A DNA stretch of 64,000 nucleotides, taken from contig MU006099.1 of assembly GCA_010093705.1 (NCBI GenBank), positions 91,344 through 155,343 of the forward strand. Reading direction: 5' to 3'. Under the pieces are notes generated by a model. That model saw only the letters and a program-made list of their open reading frames with translations, did no database searches and was not told where the DNA came from. This document shows, piece after piece, positions 21,330 through 63,300 of this stretch. A program made the translations under genes and the position numbers. How positions within the stretch are numbered: position 1 is the first letter of the stretch; every line of letters begins with the position of its first letter. This stretch comes from Patellaria atrata CBS 101060. Lineage: Eukaryota > Ascomycota > Dothideomycetes > Patellariales > Patellariaceae.

Positions 21330-24300
21330 GCATGTTACCAAAGGGTGGAAGGGTGATTGGGATTTTTTGTTGGAACTGTGATGTCATAAGACTCATACGA
21401 GAAGATATGGTTTAGAAAATCTCTGGAAGCGACTTCATTTCAAAAGCTCCCGACTTTTTCACCAGTATCAGGTTGCTCTGATCATCTGCAGTTCCATTAT
21501 AGCTGAAACTGAATCATTGAGTTGAAATAGCTTATCTTCCTATAGTTATTTTACTAAATAACTACTTGTGTATCTTGTACCATATCAAAAAGAAAATAAG
21601 TCGGACACGAGAGTTAAACTAGGCAAGGTGAAGAAAATATTGAAAAATAAAGTGTAGAACTTAAGGAATAGCCTGCCAGCTTCGACAGATACGCTATTCC
21701 CGCTCACTTCCATTTTAACTGTAGGTCTTTAAGTATACATGCCTTTACCTTTGTAAATTTAATTTTCCATTCTCTATATCTTAGAGGTCGCTCGTCCTTC
21801 AGGAAGAAGGGGGATAAGGTAAGGGTGTAATTAAGTTAAGCTCAATCAAATACTATAGAATAATTAGGAGAAAGAAAAAGATTTAAAATTCGTTTAATTG
21901 TCTATCTTAATAAAGGGAGTACTGGAGGATGACGTAAGGGATAGTTTCTAATGCTCCGAGATCAACATTCAGTTTGGAATACCTAACTGCACTTTCAAAT
22001 ATTTTTACAGTTTCGAATGCCTACTTGACGCTGTTTTGTAAGATTCAGCGGAATCGGTGCTTCGGTATCATAAACACTGCGAAGATGCTGATGTAGATGA
22101 ATTTTGACGATTTAGTGTCACCTTTTTTAACTGTCGTATAGCTGTTAGTTTTCTTGAACGTCTTGAACAGATGGCTCGTCTTGAATAGATAGCTCGTTGG
22201 TCCTTTGAATAAACAGCTCTCTTTGGTGTTATGATAGCGAAAACTCAGCGCTTCAAAAAAACCGAAACTGAACCCAGGTTTACCTTTTCTGCGGTGCTCT
22301 ATAATACCGAAGCACCGATTCAGTGGCTGAATCTTACAAACCGTGCCAAGTTAGTATTTAAAACTGCTTTTTGTAATTAAAACTGCAGTTCGGTATTCGA
22401 AACTAAATTTTTGATCATCTTGGAGCATTGGAGACTATTTCTCGGGTGACGTAGCCCGCACGGCCCCTCTGTACTCACTCTTTGAACAAGTTCTAGTCTT
22501 TACCTTATACTCCAAGGCTTACTTCTCCTCCACCAGCAATACCATCACATCTCAGCAGCATCTGACATTGAGACTCCATGCGCCGTTGTTTGGGATGAGT
22601 AAAGATTAGTACTTCACGTCTGGAACTCTCGGGTTCGTCGGTGTGCTACGGCATAAGTGGTGAGGAGACTACTTACGTACTTTGTACTGCAAGATTTTCT
22701 CTAGACGCCATAAAACTTCCACCTCTCGCAAGCAAAATGTATCCTTGGACCTGATACCTCAAGAAGATATATAACAGTGTCCGCCGCTTTAGATGGGGTA
22801 GAATTTCAGACGGTATTGGTATATCACTTCAGCTGGAAGTCAGCAGGCAGAACGAATGTGCCATCCTCTCTAAGATCATACCGAGGAACACAATAACCAG
22901 CACTATAGGCACAGTATCATCGTATCCTACAACATTGAGCGCACAATGCTACTCACTTATAGTCACGCGTTCAGTGAAGTATGCTCAAAGTGCAGAAGGG
23001 GTCCTTTCCCCCAAGAGCATCTGCCTTGGGAATATATACTCATTATATGGTAATGAAATACTGATCAATCAACAGAGGTACCGTACGTACGTAAGATGCT
23101 GTCAGGAAGATCATGGGAACCCGGAATCCTAGGTAGAGTCTTACTTAGGGTGACAAGCATGATGCTATAACAGGCAAGTTTTCTGAATGCTTTCATTGTT
23201 TGGATTTAGGGGGGACTGTCACCCTCAAATGACCCTAAACGGGTTTTCCATGCGATAATGTACCAGTTATGTCATCTCGATTTCTACTCTCTCTCTCTGA
23301 ACTTTGGCACTCTATTTCACGTGAGTTAATGCTTACCACGAACCGTATGATACGGCCGTAACATGTCCTACCCCTGAGAAATATTTTACTTCCTTTTCAT
23401 GTAACACACATAGTCAGAGCAGCTGCACATTTGCAATTGGTTCAACTTATCTATTCAAATTACATCATCCGTCTTTGGTGTTGTGATACAAAAGTCAGTG
23501 TAACATGACTCAACATCTATGAAAAGGTCAAACGTAAACAAGCCGTGCCAAGGTCTCTTGTTGCAAGAATCTCTCGCCTTAGAAGATTTTTCTCTCGGAA
23601 GCTGCTCACCGACTACAATCCTTCCTTAAATACAGGACGTGGAATCACTTAGTCCCGTGATTTCACAAGAGCATCTCTTGTATGAACAGTTGGTTACCGG
23701 CACAAGTGAGCCTTTGCATATGTCTCTTTTTCGTCTTGTCCAAGACCTTCAGTTCAATTCGACCCAATGGTCCTTCCATATGTATATCCATCCGCCCTGG
23801 CGGCGATACTCCTTCCAAGCTCACTTCAATCTCATGTAGTGCCTGAACGGCGAGGCCGGATCCTTCCACATAAGCAGACGCATTTATGAGGACGTCTTGT
23901 TGTCATTCTAGGGGCATCACTCTCGTTAATCTCGGATTACTAAAAGGTGATTTGCAATCCAACAAAGATAATGTAGTTGTTACAGTAAAGGTGAGATGCT
24001 ATCATTGGTCTCAAATGCGGCTGAAACTGTTGAGAATCATAAATGTTACGTGCGTAATATGAAGTAGACTGGGCTGAACGACGCAGAGAGACTGGGAACT
24101 CGAGTCATACTTGTGGGAAATGCTGATTTTCAATCCATGCCGTCAACATCATGAAGGACCTCAATTTACGGGAGCGGTGTAGCTCGTTCGGTGTACTCCA
24201 AGTTCCGCATCCTCAAAGTCAGGACGGAAGAGATTGGTCTTTCTGTACCACGAATATAAATTCACCCAAATATCCTCACCATTTCTCATCAGCAGCTCAT

Positions 24301-24374
24301 CCAGTAAGCACTTCACTCTTCACCCAAGCATCTCAAACCTCATCACCAAACTTCACCATACCTTAGCATCCACC
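21330..24374. other. 3-kb gap with an inverted-repeat element
   Basis: It holds the palindromic element at 21917-22476, described separately. The flanks are AT-rich and contain no convincing ORF. Nothing else recognised between 22,480 and 24,374. Confidence 0.5.
21917..22476. mobile_element. MITE-like element with long imperfect terminal inverted repeats
   Basis: About 165-185 bp at the left (21917 to about 22082) is repeated inverted at the right (about 22291-22476). Matching landmarks include TTTGTAAGATTCAGC / GCTGAATCTTACAAA, AATCGGTGCTTCGGTAT / ATACCGAAGCACCGATT, and GAGTAC / GTACTC at the outermost ends. The ~210-bp centre has no ORF. This is the layout of a non-autonomous TIR DNA transposon or foldback element. 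The arms have drifted apart noticeably, so it is not a recent insertion. Exact ends and target-site duplication are uncertain. Confidence 0.7.
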
Positions 24375-24806
24375 ATGCGCTTCATCTCTTTCTCCGCTGT
24401 GGCCTCGGCCCTTCTCTTGATCTCCACCGCAAGCGCGGGCTGCTACACCAGCGGTGACACCTGGGACGACGTCAACAACGCGAAGTACCACGTCGAGGGG
24501 ATCTGCCGAGAATGGTCTTCCGGCGCGACCGGGTCCGGCACGACGAGGACTTCTTGCAAAGACGGCAGATCCAGCGCGCAGCACTACGACTATCTGCTCT
24601 ACAATCAGGGCTCCAGCAGGACCGTCCCCTTCGGGGATTGCGTTACGGGACTGACGAAGGAGATTGGAGGATGCTCGCGCGGCGGCGAGAGTTGCGAGAA
24701 TAGTTGGTGCTATAGGTGAGTTTCCCCTTTAGGAATTTGTGGGCTGGGGATTCGTGGGTGGGCACTGATGTTTGCTAGGTCCGACCCCAATGCGGGAATG
24801 TGCTAG
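24375..24806 (+). CDS. Small secreted cysteine-rich protein, effector-like
   Basis: Exons 24375-24715 and 24779-24806 join in phase to 122 residues; the second exon adds only SDPNAGMC. Residues 1-21 are a signal peptide (MRFISFSAVASALLLISTAS, cleavage near Ala-Gly-Cys). The mature part has eight cysteines (23, 44, 61, 89, 100, 107, 112, 122), an even number suited to four disulphides. The ending (GGCSRGGES, then W-x-Y-R-S-D-P-N-x-G-x-C) recalls a group of small secreted fungal proteins of unknown function. Secreted effector or antimicrobial roles are inference. GC content is clearly higher than in the flanking DNA. Confidence 0.78.
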
Positions 24807-46033: not shown

Positions 46034-49000
46034 GGTCTTTGGTCTTTTTGAGGTTGCTGTTGAAGTTGTTCCCAGTGTGACTTTTCAAAGTGTAAACTTT
46101 GGTTCTCGTCGAGGTTGATAGGTTTCTTCGTAGATAATATCGTTACGTCTGAAAGGACACGCGGAATATTTGTCGATGTTGACCATGCTGTTCATTTAAT
46201 GAAAATAACTTGTTGCAGAAAGCTGTGAGAGCAATTATGGATGATTTGTGTTGTTGTGGAGGTTGAGAGGAGGTGGGCCAGGCGATACGAAAATTTGTAT
46301 TGTGCGAGGCTCCAAGAGGGGATGATAGTCACGTATAGGTATTGGGTGGGATTAAGAGGTGTGCGGGCCTAAACACCTATAGAATATTGCTAATAGAATT
46401 CACAGGCACGATCATGGATTACGGCACGGTAAAATTACGAGATCGAAAAGGGGTATCATTCTACAGGATTTTCGTACAAAAACGAGAGGAAAGCCTCCAC
46501 AAAGCACACAAGAACTCCCAACTCCACCACAAAAACACCCCAAAGCACCACCCAACGCCGCAGCAATCAAAAAAAGCGACACCAGGAAACAAGAGCTTTT
46601 TGAATGGCGTAAGGCCCAAGAGGAAGCGCCACCGAAGCACTGTAAACAGACTATCGGTATCTGTATGCTTTTACACCATAGCAAGCATACCGAAGGACAC
46701 TTACCAATGCCAGAGAAGGATTCTACGGCCAGACGGCCGAAAGGTGAAGATTTTAGGCCTCTCGGCCAGCGTGTCTAATCTCAAAGGGAGACCAGGGGGT
46801 TGATCTCCCGCGGTCGAACTAAGAATCCATCAGTACAATCCAACAGGAACCCACAGTGCCAACGACTTACTCTTCGACACGCGGTGCTGGCGGCGTTTCT
46901 TCACCCCACCCACCGCATCCGCCGTACTGACGGCGGTCCTAGCGGGGCCGACAGGGCCTCTATGGTCCCTGTACGCCCGGTGGTGGTCCGCCAGGTAGGC
47001 CTCCGCCTCCTGTTCTGAGGCGAAGACCTCTTCCACCGCCAGCACGGTGGTTTGAGTGTGCACCTCCATGGGAGCGGAGGTGGAGGTGGTGGTGATCGTG
47101 GCGATGGTGGTGGGTAGGGTGAGCCCCATGGCCCAGGACAAGACGTCGTAAAGTTCCGGGTTGCCCCGGAACGGCAAGAGAAGGATTTTCCTAAACATTT
47201 GATCTGTCGCGTCTCAATGTCAGAATATGATTCTGCTTTGTAGCAGCTTGTAAAGCTGTCTTGCTTATTATAGGAGTGTAAGGGGTAGTGGGGTTGCATA
47301 AGGGGTTGGAAATTGAACGGTTACTTACGATGTCGTCAAAATATTTTTCGTTAAAGAAAAAGGAAGAGAAGAAAGACGCGTGAGGTAGTTATGGGTTTAT
47401 ATTGCGGGCAGAAACGGACTAGCGCGCTTCAGTAGCTATTGGAAGCAGTCAATAGACCTGCTGGACACGCTCACAGAGCAAACGGGTGGTGCAACAGGTA
47501 AATATTGCCATTTGGTTAGAGACTAACTGAAGGTCATACACCATATGGAGCCACACATGCCATTGACTTAAGCTAGAACCGTACTGAAGCTCAATTTGTA
47601 GTGAGTTATTTGCAGAAAATGCACGGCGAGGGCCAAAGGGGGAGTCTAAGGCAGTCAGAGAGTTGTGGGATAGCGACTGGACAGGTTGAAAGCTGGCCAT
47701 GGGGCCTCCCTGTTGATTATGTGCTATTTGGAGGCTTTCCGGTGGGTATTATTACTCTATAAGCTCTTCTCGTTCCGTGAAGCGGATGTAATTAGTATAC
47801 ATAACTATACGCCAATCAGTAGAAGCATAGGAAAGGGGTACTGCCTTTCCAAAGCATTCCCTACAGTTCGTTATCGGTTTATGTCTTAACCCAGATATTC
47901 GATCCAGCCGTATGGATCTCCTTTCTTTCACACTATCAGAAATGACCCATATATCCTCTACTTGAATTTCAATTCAAAAAACTGCTTTACGTTTCCCTGT
48001 ATATTACCACAGTCTCAGTTCCCAAGGCAAACCACATCTCCTACACTTCAAGCAGGAGACGCCATCAATAATCCATTTCGTACACCATACCCATACTCAT
48101 TCAGGGCAAGCACAACAATCACCTTAATTCCAGATCGGATACACACCTACCTTCGCAATCTGTACACCTACTAACAACCGTTCGACCGTGATTCCACCAC
48201 CTACAATTACCCCTATACCTCTCTATCCTCGCACAAGCACCCCGGCAACTCCTACAGATCGCGTGGAAATACCACATCGCGGATATTGAAGTATTGTATA
48301 CACAATGGGACAGACCTGTTGGATAGCACTATCACACTGGCAACCATACTACGCTGGATACGATAGAGCAGGGAGGAGAAACTGGATGATTGAGGGCCTG
48401 GATTTGCATTCGTACAATTTCTAGATGGAATGCTAAAGCGCACGAATTCCAGAGGGGTGAAGGATACACCGTGTTCAAGGGTTACCGATCTAGTTTTCAA
48501 AGAGTGGCATAGGGGAAATGAGTGTGGCATTAACATATTGAGCAGGAGAGGTATAATCGGAAGCATTGGATCTCGCAATCCGCGATACGATCTTGATCTA
48601 TGAGATACTTTGTATTTCAGGCATTATAGTACTCTACGGTAGGTCCACTATGTCATGAAGGCCATATTGTAGGGGGTAGTTGTCACGGGCTAGACCAATA
48701 GGTATAAGTGCCTTGGATGATCCAGCGGCTTAGCCATGCTATACTTTGATAGAACAGCTGACGCTGTTCTGGCACTTTCTTTTACTTTCTTTCCTTAAGT
48801 TTAAGCTTTATGGATGATCTAGTAGCTTAGTCATGTTGTACTTTAATAGAACAGCTCACGCTGTTCTGACACTCTCTCTTACTTTCTTTCCTCAAGTTTA
48901 AGCTTCATGTACATGTAGCAATATACCTTTCAGCTTCCATCTGAGGTTGAGCCTTGACAGTAGTTTGTAAAATGTTCTGAATTTGTAGTATAGATATGGC

Positions 49001-53763: not shown

Positions 53764-54409
53764 GTTGATGATCGACCAAACGGGCGCTCGATTATGGACA
53801 TATGCCACACGTTGGTATGTACTCTTTTCCTCCTTCTTTCTCCCTTCCCCGTTTTATTATAATGATGGCATTGTAACCTAGGCATGAAAAACTAGAGACG
53901 CTCTGTTACTTCTCTATGCGTACAAGTTACCAAACTCTAGTTTGGCTTATCGGAATCTTTCAAGTCTTTTCGCAACTTGTTGTTATCTTTACTAGAATGA
54001 GCAATAAGGCTAATGGCATCGTCGCGCAAGCACTTCTCTTTAGATTTTCCGTTTGGATTGTGCACATCTCCCGAGACTCCCTCCTAGCTGACATGGATGT
54101 CGCCGGCCCTGAAGTATACTTCTTAGTATTTATGATGGTTGTCATGAACTTTGTAAGTACCAACTCTTTTTCCCGTACGTTTTTACTAGAATTGTTTGGA
54201 TAATCTCTGGCTATTTCCTATCTCTTTTGCTTTCATGTCTTCATGTCTTCATGTAATGTAATTTCCTTAGGCAACAGCTAGCTTTTCCTCAACAGGTCCT
54301 TGCACGATATTGCAATAACTGTCCTCCTCCTCCTCCTCCTCCTCCTCCTCTTCTCCATCTACTCCTGCTTCGAGCCTTCAACTCTTCAACCCTTCATCCC
54401 TTCGATTGA
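53764..54409 (+). CDS. Unknown multi-pass membrane protein, 3' exons
   Basis: Exons 53764-53814 and 53882-54152 join in phase to about 107 uninterrupted residues: LMIDQTGARLWTYATRW, HEKLETLCYFSMRTSYQ, TLVWLIGIFQVFSQLVVIFT (membrane helix), ALLFRFSVWIVHISRDS and GPEVYFLVFMMVVMNF (second helix). A last exon 54296-54409 would add VLARYCNNC, nine prolines from a CCT tract, and a short tail; an acceptor at 54270 gives a different short end. An upstream exon-like segment at 53634-53691 is preceded by the same GGCTAAYACTTAT intron end as exon 53764, so these exon units look duplicated, but its open frame does not match the next phase. The family is not recognised. Confidence 0.5.
54322..54350. repeat. 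(TCC)n microsatellite
   Basis: About nine to ten TCC units. If the upstream membrane-protein exon is spliced at 54296, it encodes a run of prolines and is prone to length change. Confidence 0.9.
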
Positions 54410-54963
54410 GTCCACTACCCACCCCTATAACTCTACGCTTCAGTAGAGCCGAAAGAGAAGGAAGATGTATTAGGTTCTCAGGAACACAACCAAGAGGCGG
54501 AAATGGCACAACACAATCGGGAGTTCGCACCGAGGAACTCGTGCTGCAATGAAGGAACAGGACACCCTAACAGTCTTAGCTTTCTGACCATCTAGGGTAC
54601 CAAACATCAACGCCCGACTTAAGCACGTCTGTAAACCGCTCAATCGATCCTCCAAGAGAGTGAATGCTCCAGACAACGTCTCCAGTGCTTTCAATCTTAA
54701 CTAACAGTAAGTCAACACCCTGTTACCCCTGAAATCCGGGTATGACGAGAACCAATTTCCAATGGAAACTCAACGAGCTCTATGCTAGATGTTCCGACTG
54801 AGGACAAATAGAGCTATTCGGATTAAACACTCGCCTTTCTTAATCACATTCGCTATGACTAGTCAGAACATAGCTAACCGGTATAACCAGTGTCTCCTTC
54901 CGACAAGAATCTCCTCGTCTGACTTCTCTGCGTTATCGTTCCGGAGTGGCCACTGACAACTAG
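54410..54963. other. Region before the module array
   Basis: Both strands are open over 54,530-54,694: + strand VPNINARLKHVCKPLNRSSK, ending at a stop just before a GTAAGT donor at 54715; minus strand a 74-codon ORF. Neither is recognised. The exon-like segment 54,430-54,590 (+) reads EPKEKEDVLGSQEHNQEAEM. Confidence 0.3.
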
Positions 54964-57634
54964 AGCTTTAGCACTCCTGATTCTGCTTCCGACTTCACCC
55001 ATTATCTGAAACCGAACGGAGTAGGTCCTTTTTCTCTAAGAACTTCTTTCATTTCACATGATGACAAAACAAAACACAACCGGTAGAAGGTCGATTGGAT
55101 TAAGGGTCAAATGTCCCTGGGGACATGGCCTGTTACTATTACCGCTGCCAATCACTGTTGTTGGCTAGGACGAAGGGTCAAAATGGATCCTTAACTTCTC
55201 TAAAAGCAGGTCCGTCGACTGTCCAGACTGAGTTCCGTACGCGGTTCCATGGCTTGTTATTTTAAATTTATCTAATCAAGGATTCACCATTCCAATCGTA
55301 TCTCTCTTCGTTGTCTATGTTCTTGAGCTAAATGCCAAATAGGTTTGCAATATCATTGCAGTCGGCTGGAGTGTTCCATCACCAACTCTCACGGTGTAAG
55401 TACCTTTCTTATGCGGCACCTTGCACTTTGAAATGATGATATCCACCCGCGATGGAAGTTCCTAATGAAAGTTGATACGGCATAGTAGTCCTGCTGCCGG
55501 CCACACTATCCCATGTGTCACTGGCAAGGATGAGGCGCCAAAAGGGCTTCGCGAGAAACCCATTCTGTCAGCTTTTTAAGGTGGTTATTTCTGCGTGGGT
55601 TTGAATTGCTACATATCAGCTTTTGACCATCTGATCGACACCACCATATGCCCTTTCTTCGGTTCGATGTTTAACTTCCGGACTAACTGCTGGTTTAGGT
55701 TCACGATTTTATGGATGGCTAGGCTCTTCCTAGAGTAAGTTCTTTTCTCCTGTCGTCCCCATTCAAATTCTTCATGATGATCAGCCAAAACACCATCGAA
55801 TGGACGTTCTTTATGAAACTTCCCTAAGGCGTACTGTTCCCATTGTCGATTAGTCTTTACTTGAGTCTTTGGCAGAAATGAGTTATGCTGAAGTGGTATT
55901 CCCCTTCCGTGGGTATGATTTGTGGTTCTGGATTCCTTTAGGGGGTTTAACATTTCTGATGGAGACTCCCTATTTTCGCTCTTTCGCCTCGTTGTTTGAT
56001 TCCTTGTGTGACTGCTCAAGTAGGTCCGCGGTATCGTCCACGATCAAATTACTATCGAGTAAGTCATTTTCCTTAAACCCAAAATCAAGATTCCGAATGA
56101 TGATCAAAAACCAAAAAAAAAAAAAACCAAAATCAAGAAAGTCTGAGAACGATGTTGGATGATTTCATCTCAATGGATCTGACCTGCACTATTCCCCTAG
56201 CTTTCTTCCACGTCGGCTATTGAAGAGTTTCGACTAACTGCTACAGCAGGTTCGCGATATCGTCCGTCTTCTAAATTTCCATAGAGCAAGTTCTTTCTCC
56301 AATCACCATACCCACTAGATCTCATATGATGAAAGGCATGATTTTCTGAGAACCGTGTTCCATGATATCAGTTTCAATTCTGACCAAGGCCGCACAACTA
56401 TTTATCTCTGCGTCGCTACTTAAACTTCTTTGCTGACTACTAGAGCAGGTCCATGCTATATCGTCCGTGTTCCAGATTTCCATAGAGTAAGTTCTTTCTC
56501 CAAGCTTTATACCCGGATCTCGTATGACGAAATTCAAGATTTTTTGAGATCCGTGTTCCATGATATCATTTTTCAATTCTGACCGAGGCCGCACAACTGT
56601 TTATCTCTGCGTCGCTACTCAAACTTTCTTTGCTGATGACTAGAGCAGGATCATGCCATATCGTCCGCGGTAATTTGTCTAAGGTAGGTTTTCCGTACGA
56701 ACCCCTTTCCAGTCGTTCATCGCTGTCATGATGAGAGTGTTTACATATGAGAAATTATGTGGAAAACAATCGTTCTTTTGGAACTATCTGAACAGGCAAC
56801 CTGATGTTGTATCTTTTCTGGCAATTGGAGTTCCCACCTCTAACCACACAATGGAAAGTAGGCCTTCAATATCAGCCGGGATCCTTTCGGAAAGGTACGC
56901 ATTGTTTCCCAATCTTTGTACGAATGACAAGTCCGAGTCGATGACCGTCTGCAAGGTACCTGTTTAAACCATGTCTTTCCGATAAATGACGGCTGCCAAT
57001 AATGATTAAATTATTCTTCTCCTTTTGACCAACGTTGAGAAATCGAATACGTCTGAATGGCACCTCTAATGTAGCCAGTATATCTCAAGACTATTTCTAA
57101 AGCTTGAAGTTTCCTCTGCTAACTGATAGAGAATAGGACTTACAATATCATCCTCGGCACCATTCCCCTCAATAAGGTACGTGATTTAACCGTCTCTTTC
57201 TGTGGAATTTGACTGCCAATGATGATCAACCTATTCAACTTCTTTTTTTGACAGGCGCTGATAAAAAAGAATATGTCTGAATGGCATATCTGAGGCAACC
57301 AACATATCTCTCAAGACTGTTTCTAAAGGTTGAAGTGTCCTCTGCTGACTTGTGAAGAATTAGGACTTGCAATATCATCCTCCGCAACGTTCCCGTCTGT
57401 AAAGTACGTGATTCAACCGTCTCTTTTCGTGAATTTTGACCGCCGATGATGATCAACCTATTCAACTTCTCCTTTTTTTGACAGGCGCTGAGAAAAAGAA
57501 TTTGTTCGAATGACAGATCTGAGGCGACTAATCTCTTTCTCAACATTGTTTCTGAAAGCTTGAAGTGTTCTCCGCTAACTGATATGGTGAGAACAGAACT
57601 TGCAATACTATCCGCGGTCATCTTCTCTTGCAAG
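54964..57634 (+). repeat. Tandem array of exon-like modules, family A (12 modules)
   Basis: Twelve short segments are each bounded by an AG acceptor and a consensus donor: 54964-55020, 55210-55236, 55344-55396, 55699-55734, 56024-56058, 56250-56285 (GC donor), 56449-56486, 56649-56683, 56862-56894, 57137-57176, 57364-57403 and 57597-57634. Most are 33-40 nt. Many acceptors follow a CTAACTG or CTGACT branch site. Segments from 55344 on, except 55699, share a core related to CTTGCAATATCATCC or TATCGTCCG. The spacers are near-copies: 56286-56448 and 56487-56648 share long blocks (GGCCGCACAACT, TTATCTCTGCGTCGCTACT), as do 57177-57363 and 57404-57596 (GATGATCAACCTATTCAACTTC, TTTGACAGGCGCTGA). Starts lie about 200-275 bp apart from 56024 on. 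The first modules chain in phase from 54964 to a stop at the end of 56285, about 70 codons; later modules do not. Confidence 0.7.
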
Positions 57635-57823
57635 GTACGTACTCAAACATCTCTTTTTGTGAACTGTGATGGGAGTTCTGATGATCCACATAAATTCTTG
57701 GACTTCTTATTGAGACTTGTGTGTCGTTGAAAAAAAACGTTCTGGACCAGATCTGAGGTAGACAGCTAGCATAATATAATTGCTAATAGATTTGAACCGA
57801 TCACTACTTATCGATTTTTCCAG

Positions 57824-59375
57824 GATTAACGCGAGCGGCCTGGATGCGAACAGTCGAGCTATTTCACCGTTTAAACGGTCGTAATGGTAGGTTTCCCCTT
57901 TTGCATGCCCATCTCCTGAAACTGTTTGCTGTTATGATGGTCCAAATCTGTTCTATGCTGATCTGAATCTTCAATGACGAAAACACGGATCCAAAATTGT
58001 CTGAACTAGCGAGCTAGTGTCGTGTCATTTTTATTGTTCTTTAAGCGATCACTGCTAACCCCTTTGTCCAGGGATTACTCGAAATGATCGAACGCCAATA
58101 TTTCCAGTCGGGATATACATCGCATCGCAAAACGTTGTAACGGTACGTATGATTACTGTCCGTCAATAGAAAATGCCTCTCTCTGTAATGAACTAGACAT
58201 TCGACTTTTCGAATTTATCGTGAGAATACCAAATCAATTTCTGACTGATCCATTTGATTTCGTTGTAAACATGAAGTCAAGCAGTGCTAACAATGCGACC
58301 AGGTACACATTTCGTAGATAGTCGGAGCGGTGGACGCAGGCGAACACAGTGGTATGTATCTTCTTGCTTTGTTTATCCTAAAGCTTTTCCAGTGGCCATG
58401 AAGTTCAATTGAACTATTATAAGGTCTTTTGACACCTTGAATGAAAAAAAAGCCCTAGTTCGTAAAATTTATGACGGCCACGGGTCTCTTCACATCGCAC
58501 CGATAAAACTTTTGACGGAGCTGTGCTAATTACTCTCCGCAGGTGAAAACTTGATAAACCAGAGGGAGAGACGCATCGCGCACAATGGTACGTATTTCCC
58601 TTCTTCCTAATACCATTGTCGTAATCATAATGAGCAAAGATCCTTCCCCACTTGACCTCTTCATGAGAACAGCACATTGGAATTCCCAATTCGAGAGTGA
58701 GACTGAGCAAGGTTACTGTTACTGGTCCAGACTGAAATGAATGCTTATTGTGCTGATTATCTGGCCGAGTGAAAAGTAGAAAAGCCGTGTAAATGTGGGC
58801 CAGACTTGGGATCCAAACATATATCATGGGAAGTATTTCTGTTTTTTTGTTGTCAGAAACCCCCAGTGCGTATGGTGAATGCCTAAATATATTGGCTTCT
58901 CGAGATTCTTGAGACAATCCGTGAGCACAACAAAGGCTGTACGAGCCATTTCTGACAAAATACGTGTGATATCGCAATGAACATGAGCAGCAGACGGAGC
59001 AGAGCTAATCGTTCTTCCAGGTGAAAACTCGATAAACTTAATGCTCGGTATGGAGAGTTGGACGCAAAACCATGTTGCGTAACGGTACGCGTCTTTTTCT
59101 ATTTGTTCAAGAGAGACCTCGGCAATTATGATGCTATTGAGAAATCGACGGTATTTTGATTCCAATGGATCCTGAGGAAACGCCATATTCGATTCAATGA
59201 CTGATAGAATTGACCCAAGACCCTGGTAGTGTTGAAGGTTCGGAATGAGCAATGCTAACCGGTAGGTGACTAGGGAGTCTACCTCAAAGTGAGCTGCACA
59301 TACACGAGAAATGGCCCATCGAGACTTTATTTTGCACAGGCACGAAGATGTTCTTGGTTGCATTCATATCCAAAG
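57824..59375 (+). repeat. Tandem array of exon-like modules, family B (7 modules, one decayed)
   Basis: Modules lie at 57824-57886, 58072-58142, 58303-58351, 58543-58587, 59021-59084, 59266-59288 and 59340-59375, with acceptors after GCTAAC/GCTAAT-type branch sites and donors GTAGGT, GTACGT, GTATGT, GTACGT, GTACGC, GTGAGC and GTATGT. In each of the first five, only the frame entered with one base left over stays open into the end of the segment, and every one then starts with a split Gly codon: GLTRAAWMRTVELFHRLNGR, GITRNDRTPIFPVGIYIASQ, GTHFVDSRSGGRRRTQ, GENLINQRERRIAHN and GENSINLMLGMESWTQNHVA (then stop). Spacing is about 230-250 bp. The one double gap (58543 to 59021) contains a decayed copy near 58770 whose acceptor reads CGAG/T instead of GCAG/G. 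Exit phases of the second and third modules do not fit the next, so a single protein is not formed without exon skipping. Confidence 0.65.
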
Positions 59376-59448
59376 GTATGTGAATCTCAATTACATGCTC
59401 AGCTAGCTTCCCCTGCGGTAGGTGAGCAGAACCGGCACTAAGAAAACG

Positions 59449-60171
59449 TTAAGATTTCAGAAGCTGCTCGTCGGAATGGTGTTCTGGATCCGTCACATCA
59501 ACCGCATCGATTGAGTGAAGTAGGGTTGCAATAGTACCGACGGGTGACTTGATCTCCTTTCTTCCAAGTCCGCCGCCAAGTACCACATCATCTCCATTAT
59601 CCAATACATACACGTCTGAAGATCCACAGATCAATCTCCATGATGACCCCACAGATGCTCGTAGAGATATCGTGAGCATGCTCCCGATAGTGGCTATTAT
59701 GTTGACTGTTTTTGCACGCTCATTTAGGCTCCTCATTCTCGACCCTGCGAGCCAACCCTGATGGAAAGAGTTTTCATGTGTCCAACAAGCCGCAGGGTTC
59801 TTAGGCATCTCAGTGTAAGACCGTCCAGTTGAGCAGAAGAGTGCAAAGGTCGGTAATGAGTAACAGTCGCCCGGGGAAAGCATATAAGATGAATTACGAG
59901 CTTGCAAGAAGATGGTAAGTCAGCTCCTCGTTGTGGCATCAAGTACTCTTCCAGGTACAAAGGTCGAATCAACAAATGTTTCTGTGTTCTCCACGAAGAA
60001 ATAAGTTGAAAGACCATACATATCCGTGGGGTTTGTGGATGTGCCATACAGTGGGTTGTGGATGTTAGTAATCCGGTAAGCAGAACTGACGGGAAGACTG
60101 TACCAACCGGTTCTTCCAATCCCGGATGATAAGTTCACGTCGGCTTCACATATTACTGTTCCCAACGACAA
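59449..60171 (-). pseudogene. Unknown minus-strand gene, frame interrupted once
   Basis: Two blocks in the same frame: 60171-59920 (GWYSLPVSSAYRITNIHNPL, TDMYGLSTYFFVENTET) and 59919-59449 (NSSYMLSPGDCYSLPTFALF, ERAKTVNIIATIGSMLT, DVYVLDNGDDVVLGGGLGRK). A single in-frame TGA lies between them. The candidate introns around it do not restore phase. Composition looks coding (Ser/Thr/Asn-rich, possibly extracellular). There is no ATG at the 5' end of the open frame; upstream exons may lie in the duplicated cassette at 60300-60364. It converges with the + strand module array. No family recognised. Confidence 0.4.
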
Positions 60172-60364
60172 GTCCCTTTAGAGTCTTGCTCTTTAGAGAC
60201 GGCGGGTGGAGTTTAGTGTTTCTGATGGGTCCCTAATAACAGCAGTTGGATCTTGGCAATTTGGTATATAGAACTGCACGGAAAATTGCACTCAAGGACG
60301 GTCTTCCAATCCGGATGATGAGTTCATGCCAGCTTCACTAAGATTACTTCCAACGACAAGATCC
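60109..60364 (-). repeat. Duplicated ~65-bp coding-like cassette
   Basis: Segments 60109-60176 and 60300-60364 are close copies (GGTTCTTCCAATCC / GGTCTTCCAATCC, CAACGACAAG). On the minus strand one frame gives related peptides: LSLGTVICEADVNLSSGIGR and LVVGSNLSEAGMNSSSGLED. The copies lie about 190 bp apart, the same order of spacing as the + strand exon modules, and may be duplicated exons of the minus-strand gene. Confidence 0.55.
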
Positions 60365-63300
60365 TCCGGGGTTTGTTTCCGAAGCTAGCTAGTGAAGCTA
60401 GTGTTTCTGACGGAACCAACCGACTATTCCCGGGCGGACATTTTTTTAAGATGGTTTGTTCCTTGATTTTTGAGCAAGGAATGTAGAGATTCCTATCGAA
60501 TGAAGAGCTTGATACTTACTGGAATATTGATGATATGAGGTCTTTTGAAAGTGGACTAGTGCCCACCGTCGTGAGGAGTATCATATTCTCCGGGAAATGA
60601 TGGACTTCTTCCCGAACGATTGAACTGACCTGAGAAATTATCACTTTCAAGAACGGCTTCCTTACATGGAATGTCCTTCATAGATCGTCAGTGACGGTTG
60701 CTCTGACCGGAAATACTGGAAGTGGAATGGTTCCTTTGCTCATTAAGAAGTTCGTTACTGTTAGTGTACAAATGCCGGAGTGGAAGTTTAGTCTCTTGAA
60801 AATGACAGGGAAGGAAGAATCGGTCTGATGGAAGGGAACGACGGACCAAACTGACTAAAGGAAGAAAGAGTAAAGAATTGACCAAAGGTTCAGGACCGAG
60901 GAGCTTGAGACGCCATAAAGAGCATGAAATATCGCCACAGAATGTACAACTGACTGGATATAGTTTGACAATGCAGACAAAGTAAAAGATCAGATGTAAG
61001 TACAACTGTCGTGGTATGAAAACTAATGACTTGTGACTAGAGTGACAGAATGGAAGCAAATCGATATGAACTGAAGACATTGTGACTGGCAAGCGCACGC
61101 ACTTACGGATGACTAGGATTAAGGAGGACAGATTGAGGAAGCCGAAGTTGCGGATTAAAGGATAATAGGTCTCGCTGCAGGACGCTATAAGTTCTGGGAC
61201 AGAATAACTAGTGATCCAATAGAAAGTACAAGAGCAGAAAAAGGTACTCGAGAAGCGCAATGAACTTAAGAGAAGCACAAGATGGAGGACAAAGATATGG
61301 GAGAAATTTCTCTAGTTCCACAGAGACGGTTTGAAAATAAGGAAGGAAATGATGAAAGGACGAATGACGCCATAAAAAAGACTGGCAAATGATTACTTGG
61401 GAGGATACTGCCCTTAGGTCCGACTGCCAGCTCGTAGGTAGGACTATTTCCGTTCCAATGTCCAAAGCCGAACCTTCACTGGCTGTTAATATTTATGCAA
61501 CTTCGATATACGATGATAGCAAACCCTCATAGCAACTCCCCAGTGTTTTCTTCTAGATAACACCACCGCGCACTCTGATTCCTTCAGTACTAATATGTCT
61601 TTTGTTATGTCCGTTAGGAGGCGCGGACTTGAGGATGGTTGCCTGAATATATGGACGCCCTTTCTAATACTGTCGTCGCGATTGGAATGGATGAACCTAA
61701 GGCGCGTTGTGGGAGCACACATTACGTCCGATCATGGTGCGTTTCGTCGGCGGAGTCGTTGCTTCTCTTTAAGCTCGTAATGCTTATAGCCACAGGAAGA
61801 ATTGGTACACATTAGGTATATGTGCATCCGACGATCCTACGAAGTCCACCGATCTACACAGGGACGAAGAGTTCTGCACAAGGTCAACTATGATCAGACT
61901 AAACGCAGAGCTGGTTCAGCTTACCTACCAATGATATAAAGAGGGACTCAGCACTCATGGATATCGCGGTGAGCTTCCTTTGGTACCTCCACTATGGAAT
62001 CTATCTATGTGAGTACAGTGAGATGTACGGTAATAATGTTAAACATACCCTAACTGATTAGTTGCAAAATCTATGGTCTTTGACCGGACTCTCTTCTGTT
62101 TGCTATATTCTAGTATAACTTGAGTGCATTGCCTTTCTTGTTTTGATACGCTTGAGCACGTTTCGCTGATGACTGTCATTTTTGATCACCTTGGTGCGGC
62201 GAATCCCATCTCGGACTGCCCCTCGAATGAATGGCGTGAACCTACACTGCTTCGACGAGCTATTGAGCTTACCGCTCTTGTTTTCCTGCTCTGAACGCTC
62301 ACAGATGCGTGGCGGTTAAAAACGATCAGAGAATATGGTCGCAGGGTCGCCTCGGGTGAGTTGGATTTCGTTAGTCGGTATAGGTGAGGAGCGGCGCACT
62401 TTGCGCTCGAACTTCAGAGTTTCAAGCTTAGAGAATAGCTTTCTGAACACCATTGTGAGTATTCGTGGAAGAAGTGGTATGATTTTAAAGGATAGAGATT
62501 GTTGCTTAGAGTGGCGGGAAAGAAAAGTAAATATTCAAGCCGCAGCAAGAGAGCCTAGTCCGCAGGCGGAGAAGGTCAAAACCACTTTGAAATTAAACCG
62601 GTCGTAACTACACTCCCTCGAATCCCATTTTTAAGCTATCACACGTTGCTTTGGAGTCAAATACCATCTCCCACAATAATTATTCATCATCAAGAGAGCC
62701 AGGTCTCCGTCCAATCCATAACCAAAACCCGAGGACGTCTGAATCAACACCCGGATAGCTAGACTTCGTTAGGTAATGTTAGATGAACAGCAGGGGGGTC
62801 AGAGATAATATTGCTTCCAACAGCCCTTCTAGACGAAGAGCTCTTCGACTTCAAGTCATTTTGGTCCTGAAACAGGTGCATGGTGTGTATCAACCTCACC
62901 CTCCTGCGACGGAAAACCCGCTACACCTCTTGCACTTGCGCACATTCTTCAACAGTGCCGAGAGCGGCGCAACATCCCAAGAGGTTTTAGACAGTATAAG
63001 GAAACAGAACCATAGAAAACGGTCTTTGGCATCTAGCATAATACATACAAGCTGAGAGCGCACCCTCTTTTGTTACAATGTCTGATACCATGGGAGCGCC
63101 TTGGGAAGCTTCTTGGATTCGGCAATGAGCATTAGGTTATAGCTGAAAGTATAGGAAATACCCTTGCGACGGACATCACAGGGCATATCGGAGCAGCATG
63201 AACATACAAGAGACTGACATCTTAAGACCAAAGCAGTCTACGAAAGAGCAATTCAACACTAAAAAGAGCGGCTATATTCAGTTCTGGACGGAAAAGACGC

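Follow-up and report, generated by a model that had tools for sequence, protein, structure and literature searches.

A probable non-coding host gene with a box C/D small nucleolar RNA in nearly every intron in the fungus Patellaria atrata

Introduction

Multi-intron non-coding genes that host small nucleolar RNAs (snoRNAs) have been described in Neurospora crassa, Aspergillus nidulans and Candida (passages of PMC2780460, PMC4046813, PMC5033589), and small internal exons occur in fungal snoRNA clusters (passages of PMC3596301). In the A. nidulans cluster, read peaks lie inside seven introns and the snoRNAs were recognized through Rfam (PMC4046813, in part). As for tandem box C/D arrays, passages of PMC11028025 present them as eutherian-specific innovations, adding that understudied genomes might hold more. 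The subject of this article is a row of short exons on the plus strand of Patellaria atrata CBS 101060, at positions 54964-59375 of a 64,000-nucleotide (nt) stretch of contig MU006099.1 (positions 91,344 to 155,343), hereafter called the window. A reading made from the letters alone, the sequence-only reading, had likened this row above all to animal microexon genes and had held that no such array was known in fungi, a statement that the hosts cited above make too strong. Here we argue that the array is, with a probability of about 0.93, a non-coding host gene of the UHG/GAS5 type, with a box C/D snoRNA in nearly every intron. The genome assembly analyzed comprises 28.3 Mb in 46 contigs.

Box C/D Signals in the Introns

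The introns of the array carry box motifs that were absent from the sequence-only description. In most of them, 37-47 nt separate the donor from a box C (RTGATGA), and a box D (CTGA) precedes the acceptor by 58-74 nt: the predicted geometry is that of intronic C/D snoRNAs. A box C counts as in place if it lies at +34-50 and departs from the consensus at no more than one position, a box D if its CTGA is 56-76 nt before the acceptor. By this measure both boxes are in place in 12 of the 17 introns, while shuffled introns yield a mean of 0.045 and a maximum of two (1000 rounds). Taken separately, box C is in place in 14 of 17 (0.63 expected) and box D in 12 of 17 (1.27 expected). An exact box C 30-46 nt past a GTANGH donor occurs eight times at the array, against 0.04 in 500 shuffles, and is found in none of 12 other tiles of the window on either strand. 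Finally, a joint score for box C, box D and stem gives p<0.05 in 15 of the 17 introns (p=0.105 for intron 16).

Terminal stems accompany some of these motifs. In a strict scan of 54400-60499, six candidates combined C/D boxes with a terminal stem, compared with 0.43 in 100 shuffles; the minus strand of the same 6.1 kb gave none, and the rest of the window 0.68 and 0.56 per 6.1 kb on its two strands. Between introns 10 and 11 the stem shows a compensatory change from U-A to C-G (TGCC/GGCA vs. CGCC/GGCG), and another, from C-G to U-A, separates two copies found downstream at 60119-60416 (TCCG/CGGA vs. CCCG/TGGG). In many other array introns the stem is absent or weak.

The same genome offers a reference. 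A search with the 12-nt snR74 guide led to a single place, the conserved snR78-snR73 cluster on contig C2 near 556480; the pattern with box D′ fixed had returned no match in the genome, and the cluster was recovered once the box was dropped. Three of its five C/D introns hold complements to 25S ribosomal RNA (rRNA) at about 2421, to 25S at about 2288 and to 18S at about 28, and a further complement, to 25S 2957-2967, follows. These five introns measure 161-206 nt; their box C lies between +33 and +44, and their CTGA 62-78 nt from the likeliest acceptor (67 or 64; 78 or 64; 63-69; 62; 65 or 69 nt). Judged from their predicted signals, the array and this canonical cluster share one architecture. 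Within the cluster, the D′ boxes look degenerate, and by eye the snR77-type guide seems to contain one A more than the expected complement.

Exons and Coding Potential

The 18 exons called, 27-71 nt long, have intact splice sites, with AG acceptors and GYANGY donors, which confirms the array of short exons first proposed. That donors and acceptors should exceed their frequency in shuffled sequence also held: GTRNGT donors number 19 (mean 5.9, maximum 15) and branch-AG-exon-donor chains 18 (mean 1.7, maximum 6) in comparison with 500 dinucleotide shuffles. The donor count taken alone is not unique to the array, a tile of the window from 13237 holding 17. The original count of 19 exons is less certain, since 18 were called; a probable overlooked exon near 58780-58832, where the split was read by eye, would restore the total to 19, and the exon at 55210-55236 is doubtful. 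The genome search proposed for the exon core was run, and the exact CTTGCAATATCATCC was found once in the 28.3 Mb.

Joining the exons does not produce a single open reading frame (ORF), as the sequence-only reading had already seen from their phases. The longest stop-free stretch is 80 amino acids against a shuffle mean of 81 (n=500), a length reached by 46% of the shuffles, and 8 of the 18 exon lengths are divisible by three. No coding signal was thus found in the exons by the frame and ORF-length tests. Ahead of the called exons, at 54707-54890, the window holds an extra donor (GTAAGT, 54707), a box-C-like ATGACGA (54742) and a CTGA (54798), which suggest that the host gene begins before the exon that had been listed first.

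Guides and Possible rRNA Targets

The ribosomal DNA (rDNA) of the species was not found in the assembly (no match to an 18S pattern or to a 5.8S model), so the guides were tested on yeast rRNA as a stand-in and on stretches of U2 and U6. The rRNA target was that of Saccharomyces cerevisiae, with a 25S lacking 2 nt; all 55 known methylated positions tested in it have the base expected. Contaminant protist contigs with large-subunit rRNA were too divergent to serve as a target, and were used for rough comparison alone.

The 19 candidate RNAs offer 57 candidate D/D′ boxes, of which two are preceded by Watson-Crick runs above chance. In intron 5, 14 nt match 18S 1248-1261 one nucleotide ahead of a CTGA, and in intron 4, 13 nt match 25S 913-925 two nucleotides ahead of a TTGA. 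Shuffled guides (300 rounds) reach 13 nt in 1.3% and 14 nt in 0.33% of cases, and none of 1666 control sites elsewhere in the window reaches 11 nt. We read the predicted snoRNAs of introns 4 and 5 as probable 2′-O-methylation guides for 25S and 18S, respectively. The target of intron 4 is also that of N. crassa CD39 (26S-Am897; PMC2780460, Table 1). By an offset estimate, this site corresponds to about A917 in yeast numbering, and the TTGA box of intron 4 would point to A915.

Intron 9 has an 11-nt match to 25S 2789-2799, near yeast Gm2793, in a doubtful register. Its role as a snR48-type guide is uncertain: the register needs ATGT as a box, whereas CTAA stands where intron 10 has its homologous box D. 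No other complementary run of 10-11 nt is individually above chance against yeast rRNA, and judged against that rRNA most other units look orphan. A known-site filter used alone over 52-63 kb gives four matches on the plus strand and six on the minus strand, which by itself is no proof.

Two further stretches resemble rRNA. At 54927-54940, a 14-nt complement to 25S 2636-2649 lies without an adjacent box D or a clear box C, in register with the yeast Am2640 site (snR68). At 60075-60088, a 14-nt sense identity to 25S 1126-1139 coincides with a possible donor and is probably due to chance.

Duplication History

Unit recurrence every 200-250 bp had been ascribed to duplication of whole exon-plus-intron units. 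The repeats are real (2 copies of a 199-nt period at 56257-56667, and 2.2-2.6 copies of a 227-nt period at 57079-57663), but they are local and chiefly link neighbors. Similarity between introns (I) peaks in adjacent pairs (I10-I11, z score 69; I6-I7, z 50; I3-I4, z 12), and further similarity groups run from I9 to I13 and from I5 to I7. Most non-neighboring pairs are near background, although a few, I8-I13 among them, reach z 5-7. Some exon (E) cores are alike where the introns differ (z 3.9 for E3-E11, whereas I3-I10 and I3-I11 score about 0 or lower). The copies form several subfamilies rather than one homogeneous family. Guides vary even among close copies (I6/I7, I10/I11), and the intron 5 element is missing from introns 6 and 7. 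Searching the genome with the whole locus returned the self-match alone, with no second copy at that sensitivity. From this pattern we infer a history of few founders followed by local duplication of exon-plus-intron units, in which the predicted guides drifted. As a separate observation, ATATCRTCC-like cores are recognizable in exons E5-E12 (56024-57634) across units whose introns align poorly.

The following mechanism would fit the locus. RNA polymerase II would presumably transcribe the non-coding gene on the plus strand, and splicing would follow. As in other members of the family, each excised intron would yield, after debranching and trimming, a box C/D snoRNA shielded by the standard C/D proteins, while the exons would merely space the splice sites before being discarded; a sole role in spacing would explain why they are small and frameless. 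The position of box D, about 66 nt before the acceptor, is a spacing thought, according to the literature, to couple assembly of the small nucleolar ribonucleoprotein with splicing. The array grew by tandem copying of exon-plus-intron units, as the similarity between neighbors shows, probably from its few founders; two units retain guides that match 18S and 25S, and most of the remaining copies, whose guides have no above-chance match to yeast rRNA, are best taken as orphan or drifting snoRNAs. The features on which this description is based are collected in Table 1.

Table 1. Features predicted at the array and downstream of it (window positions; C and D, boxes C and D).
Feature	Positions	Strand	Details
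Non-coding host transcript, part with the 18 called exons	54964-59375	+	spliced length 796 nt as first called
Intron 1	55021-55209	+	C 55058; no clear box D
Intron 2, doubtful like the preceding exon	55237-55342	+	no snoRNA found
Intron 3	55396-55698	+	C 55433; D 55631, 64 nt before acceptor; C-to-D span about 202 nt
Intron 4	55735-56023	+	C 55774; D 55956, 64 nt before acceptor; span about 186 nt
Intron 4 antisense element, 13 nt	55846-55858	+	complement to 25S 913-925; TTGA at 55861
Intron 5	56059-56249	+	C 56097; D 56179; box D′ CTGA 56143
Intron 5 guide, 14 nt	56128-56141	+	complement to 18S 1248-1261, one nt before D′
Intron 6, GC donor	56286-56448	+	C 56326; D 56380; tandem copy of intron 7
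Intron 7	56487-56648	+	C 56524 (ATGACGA); D 56579
Intron 8	56684-56861	+	C 56728; D 56788; terminal stem CTGT/ACAG
Intron 9	56895-57136	+	C 56999 (ATAATGA, 104 nt from donor); CTAA 57066 at box D position
Intron 10	57177-57363	+	C 57219; D 57290; terminal stem TGCC/GGCA
Intron 11	57404-57596	+	C 57446; D 57519; terminal stem CGCC/GGCG
Intron 12	57635-57823	+	C about 57678 (CTGATGA); D 57753
Intron 13	57887-58071	+	C 57934 (ATGATGG); D′ 57963; C′ 57974; D 58001
Intron 14	58143-58302	+	C 58185 (GTAATGA); D 58241
Intron 15	58352-58542	+	C 58398 (ATGAAGT); D ATGA 58471; terminal stem GTGGCC/GGCCAC
Intron 16 as called, probably two introns	58588-59020	+	C/D 58627/58703; weaker 58872/58952
Intron 17 as called	59085-59339	+	C 59128 (ATGATGC); D 59201, 61 nt upstream of an alternative acceptor ending 59265
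Two tandem C/D-like RNAs downstream of the array	60119-60416	+	C 60126/D 60222; C 60315/D 60407

Weighing the Explanations

Several results speak against a snoRNA host gene, or against parts of it. The shuffle tests overstate significance, because tandem copies are not independent (the introns amount to about eight groups). The joint C/D scan gave no snoRNA candidate in intron 2; in introns 1, 9, 12, 14, 15, 16 and 17 the boxes are imperfect or the splice sites uncertain; intron 16, one of the 12 counted as complete, pairs boxes that probably belong to two introns. The top joint-score pairs of introns 3, 4, 9 and 10 differ from those listed in Table 1; for introns 3 and 4 the earlier pairs were replaced when a CTGA was found 64 nt before both acceptors. 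Minimum-energy folds of five candidates barely beat shuffles (z -0.9 to -2.3). Rfam returned no match at the gathering score, and its best sub-threshold rows, which are C/D families, score poorly, at 25.6 bits (E 1.5) and 25.1 bits (E 0.36); the snR61 and U59 rows, below gathering, were not accepted. Concerning the guides, 54700-60500 examined without the box condition contains four antisense runs of at least 12 nt (13-14 nt) and three sense runs (12, 13, and 14 nt); of the four, the run at 56379 overlaps a box D and the run at 54927 has no box next to it. Since sense runs are comparably common, long rRNA runs alone prove little, and the guide claims rest on the box-adjacent runs of 13-14 nt. 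Moreover, a second CD39 candidate exists on contig C1 near 1913024, where a GTACGT donor is followed by a box C (ATGATGA) and by an antisense element to 25S 913-925. That locus is probably the CD39 snoRNA, so the guide of intron 4 would be redundant or coincidental.

What kind of gene could the array be instead? A microexon coding gene for alternative small secreted proteins, of the schistosome or aphid bicycle type, would account for the numerous tiny exons and their good splice sites. It was rejected as very improbable: the frames do not join, fewer than half of the exon lengths are divisible by three, the stop-free run is at chance, and the snoRNA content explains the introns, so that the comparison which led the sequence-only reading falls. 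Its option of a non-coding spliced RNA, on the other hand, fits both the coding tests and the content of the introns. Within a snoRNA host, an ordinary housekeeping gene deserves serious thought, short of even odds: most or all of its snoRNAs would guide rRNA or small nuclear RNA methylation at sites that differ from yeast or lie outside the targets tested. The comparison covered only yeast rRNA and stretches of U2 and U6; the degenerate-looking D′ boxes of this genome may hide guides; antisense runs of at least 10 nt within the snoRNAs number 12, against 4.85 in shuffles; and 31 of 71 N. crassa sites had not been reported in the two yeasts, according to PMC2780460. Yet known sites were matched over at least 11 nt by three of the five canonical introns and the CD39 candidate, against one of 16 array units (Fisher p 0.009; 0.09 once the two loci found through their own guides are dropped; 0.025 and 0.16 if intron 9 is counted, making 2 of 16), and the guides differ among close copies.

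Decay had been another of the early options, the duplicated copies being mostly snoRNA pseudogenes carried along by splicing. For the guides this has some appeal, as they drifted between copies, intron 6 lacks stem pairs present in intron 7, and some boxes are imperfect (CTAA in intron 9, ATAATGA, GTAATGA). The splicing layer tells a different story: splice signals, C/D geometry and most boxes persist across units that have otherwise mostly diverged to background, and the stems show compensatory changes (introns 10/11 and the downstream copies). We consider a decaying array rather unlikely. The array might also correspond, in a fungus, to the tandem orphan-snoRNA arrays of mammals: growing and lineage-specific, it would keep the scaffold while exchanging guides and acquiring new non-ribosomal targets; we put this forward as a tentative idea, itself doubtful.

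Surroundings of the Locus

The two C/D-like RNAs downstream of the array are not in its intron geometry, and a 119-nt stretch over both is 74% alike. An Rfam row for U3 snoRNA at 60236-60416 (21.4 bits, E 0.77) was taken as chance, the two copies fitting C/D RNAs better. On the minus strand, none of the six ORFs tested had a Pfam match, and minus-strand genes were dropped as an explanation of the locus.

The other genes of the window are ordinary, with Pfam matches for 5 of 10 ORFs tested (Rif1 N-terminal domain, aldose epimerase, short-chain dehydrogenase, Nse zinc finger, and TrAA12-like). A 443-residue ORF elsewhere in the window shows at most 59% identity to Pezizomycotina proteins from several classes (among the best 120 of 189 matches), and an ORF at 24183-24719 encodes a small, secreted-looking protein with cysteines and without a Pfam match. 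Outside the exon array, 97 nt are tandemly duplicated at 48714-48909 (86% matches). In the assembly as a whole, seven N-free contig starts are very AT-rich (GC 0.06-0.30), compatible with decay resembling that by repeat-induced point mutation, some other starts being partly or wholly N.

Comparison with Known Systems

Several of the closest known systems are fungal. The UHG-like clusters I-V of N. crassa (PMC2780460) and the fungal clusters I-III (PMC3596301), as described in passages of these papers, share with the array a non-coding host without a long ORF, one C/D snoRNA per intron, internal exons of small size and a comparable distance to the splice sites. Clusters I-III hold 3-7 conserved snoRNAs with rRNA guides (PMC3596301, in part), whereas the array holds about 16 units, tandemly duplicated, most without a recognizable guide. 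The chromosome V cluster of A. nidulans is likewise non-coding, with seven introns and no reconstructable ORF; it has fewer units, is described as N. crassa-like, and tandem unit duplication goes unmentioned in the passages concerned (PMC4046813). Among the best-ranked papers listed, literature searches of open-licence full texts turned up no fungal tandem intronic C/D array this large, and nothing resembling the array among microexons in fungal effectors.

Outside the fungi, mammalian UHG (SNHG1) and GAS5 are also multi-intron non-coding snoRNA hosts. Their snoRNAs are mostly distinct rRNA guides, unlike the local tandem copies of the fungal array. Schistosome micro-exon genes and aphid bicycle genes are rows of small exons too; they are protein-coding, whereas the fungal array shows no coding signal. 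Arrays of the SNORD type can be far longer, with similar copies, and the human ones lie in imprinted domains. SNORD115/116, SNORD113/114 and rat Bsr resemble the fungal array in their tandem intronic C/D snoRNAs, mostly orphan, and their non-coding host (passages of PMC11028025, PMC8162545). The fungal copies are by comparison few and divergent, fall into several subfamilies, and include two that keep probable rRNA guides.

A supposed microexon effector gene thus turns into a probable snoRNA host. Rows of tiny fungal exons deserve a check for intronic C/D RNAs, and Rfam gathering thresholds missed the candidates described here. With its probable founder guides, the array would offer a simple system for the birth of orphan snoRNAs and possible target gain. 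The type of host gene is known in fungi; what is unusual is the size of this predicted one, with about 16 snoRNA introns, its growth by copying between neighbors, and the lack of an evident target for many of its guides.

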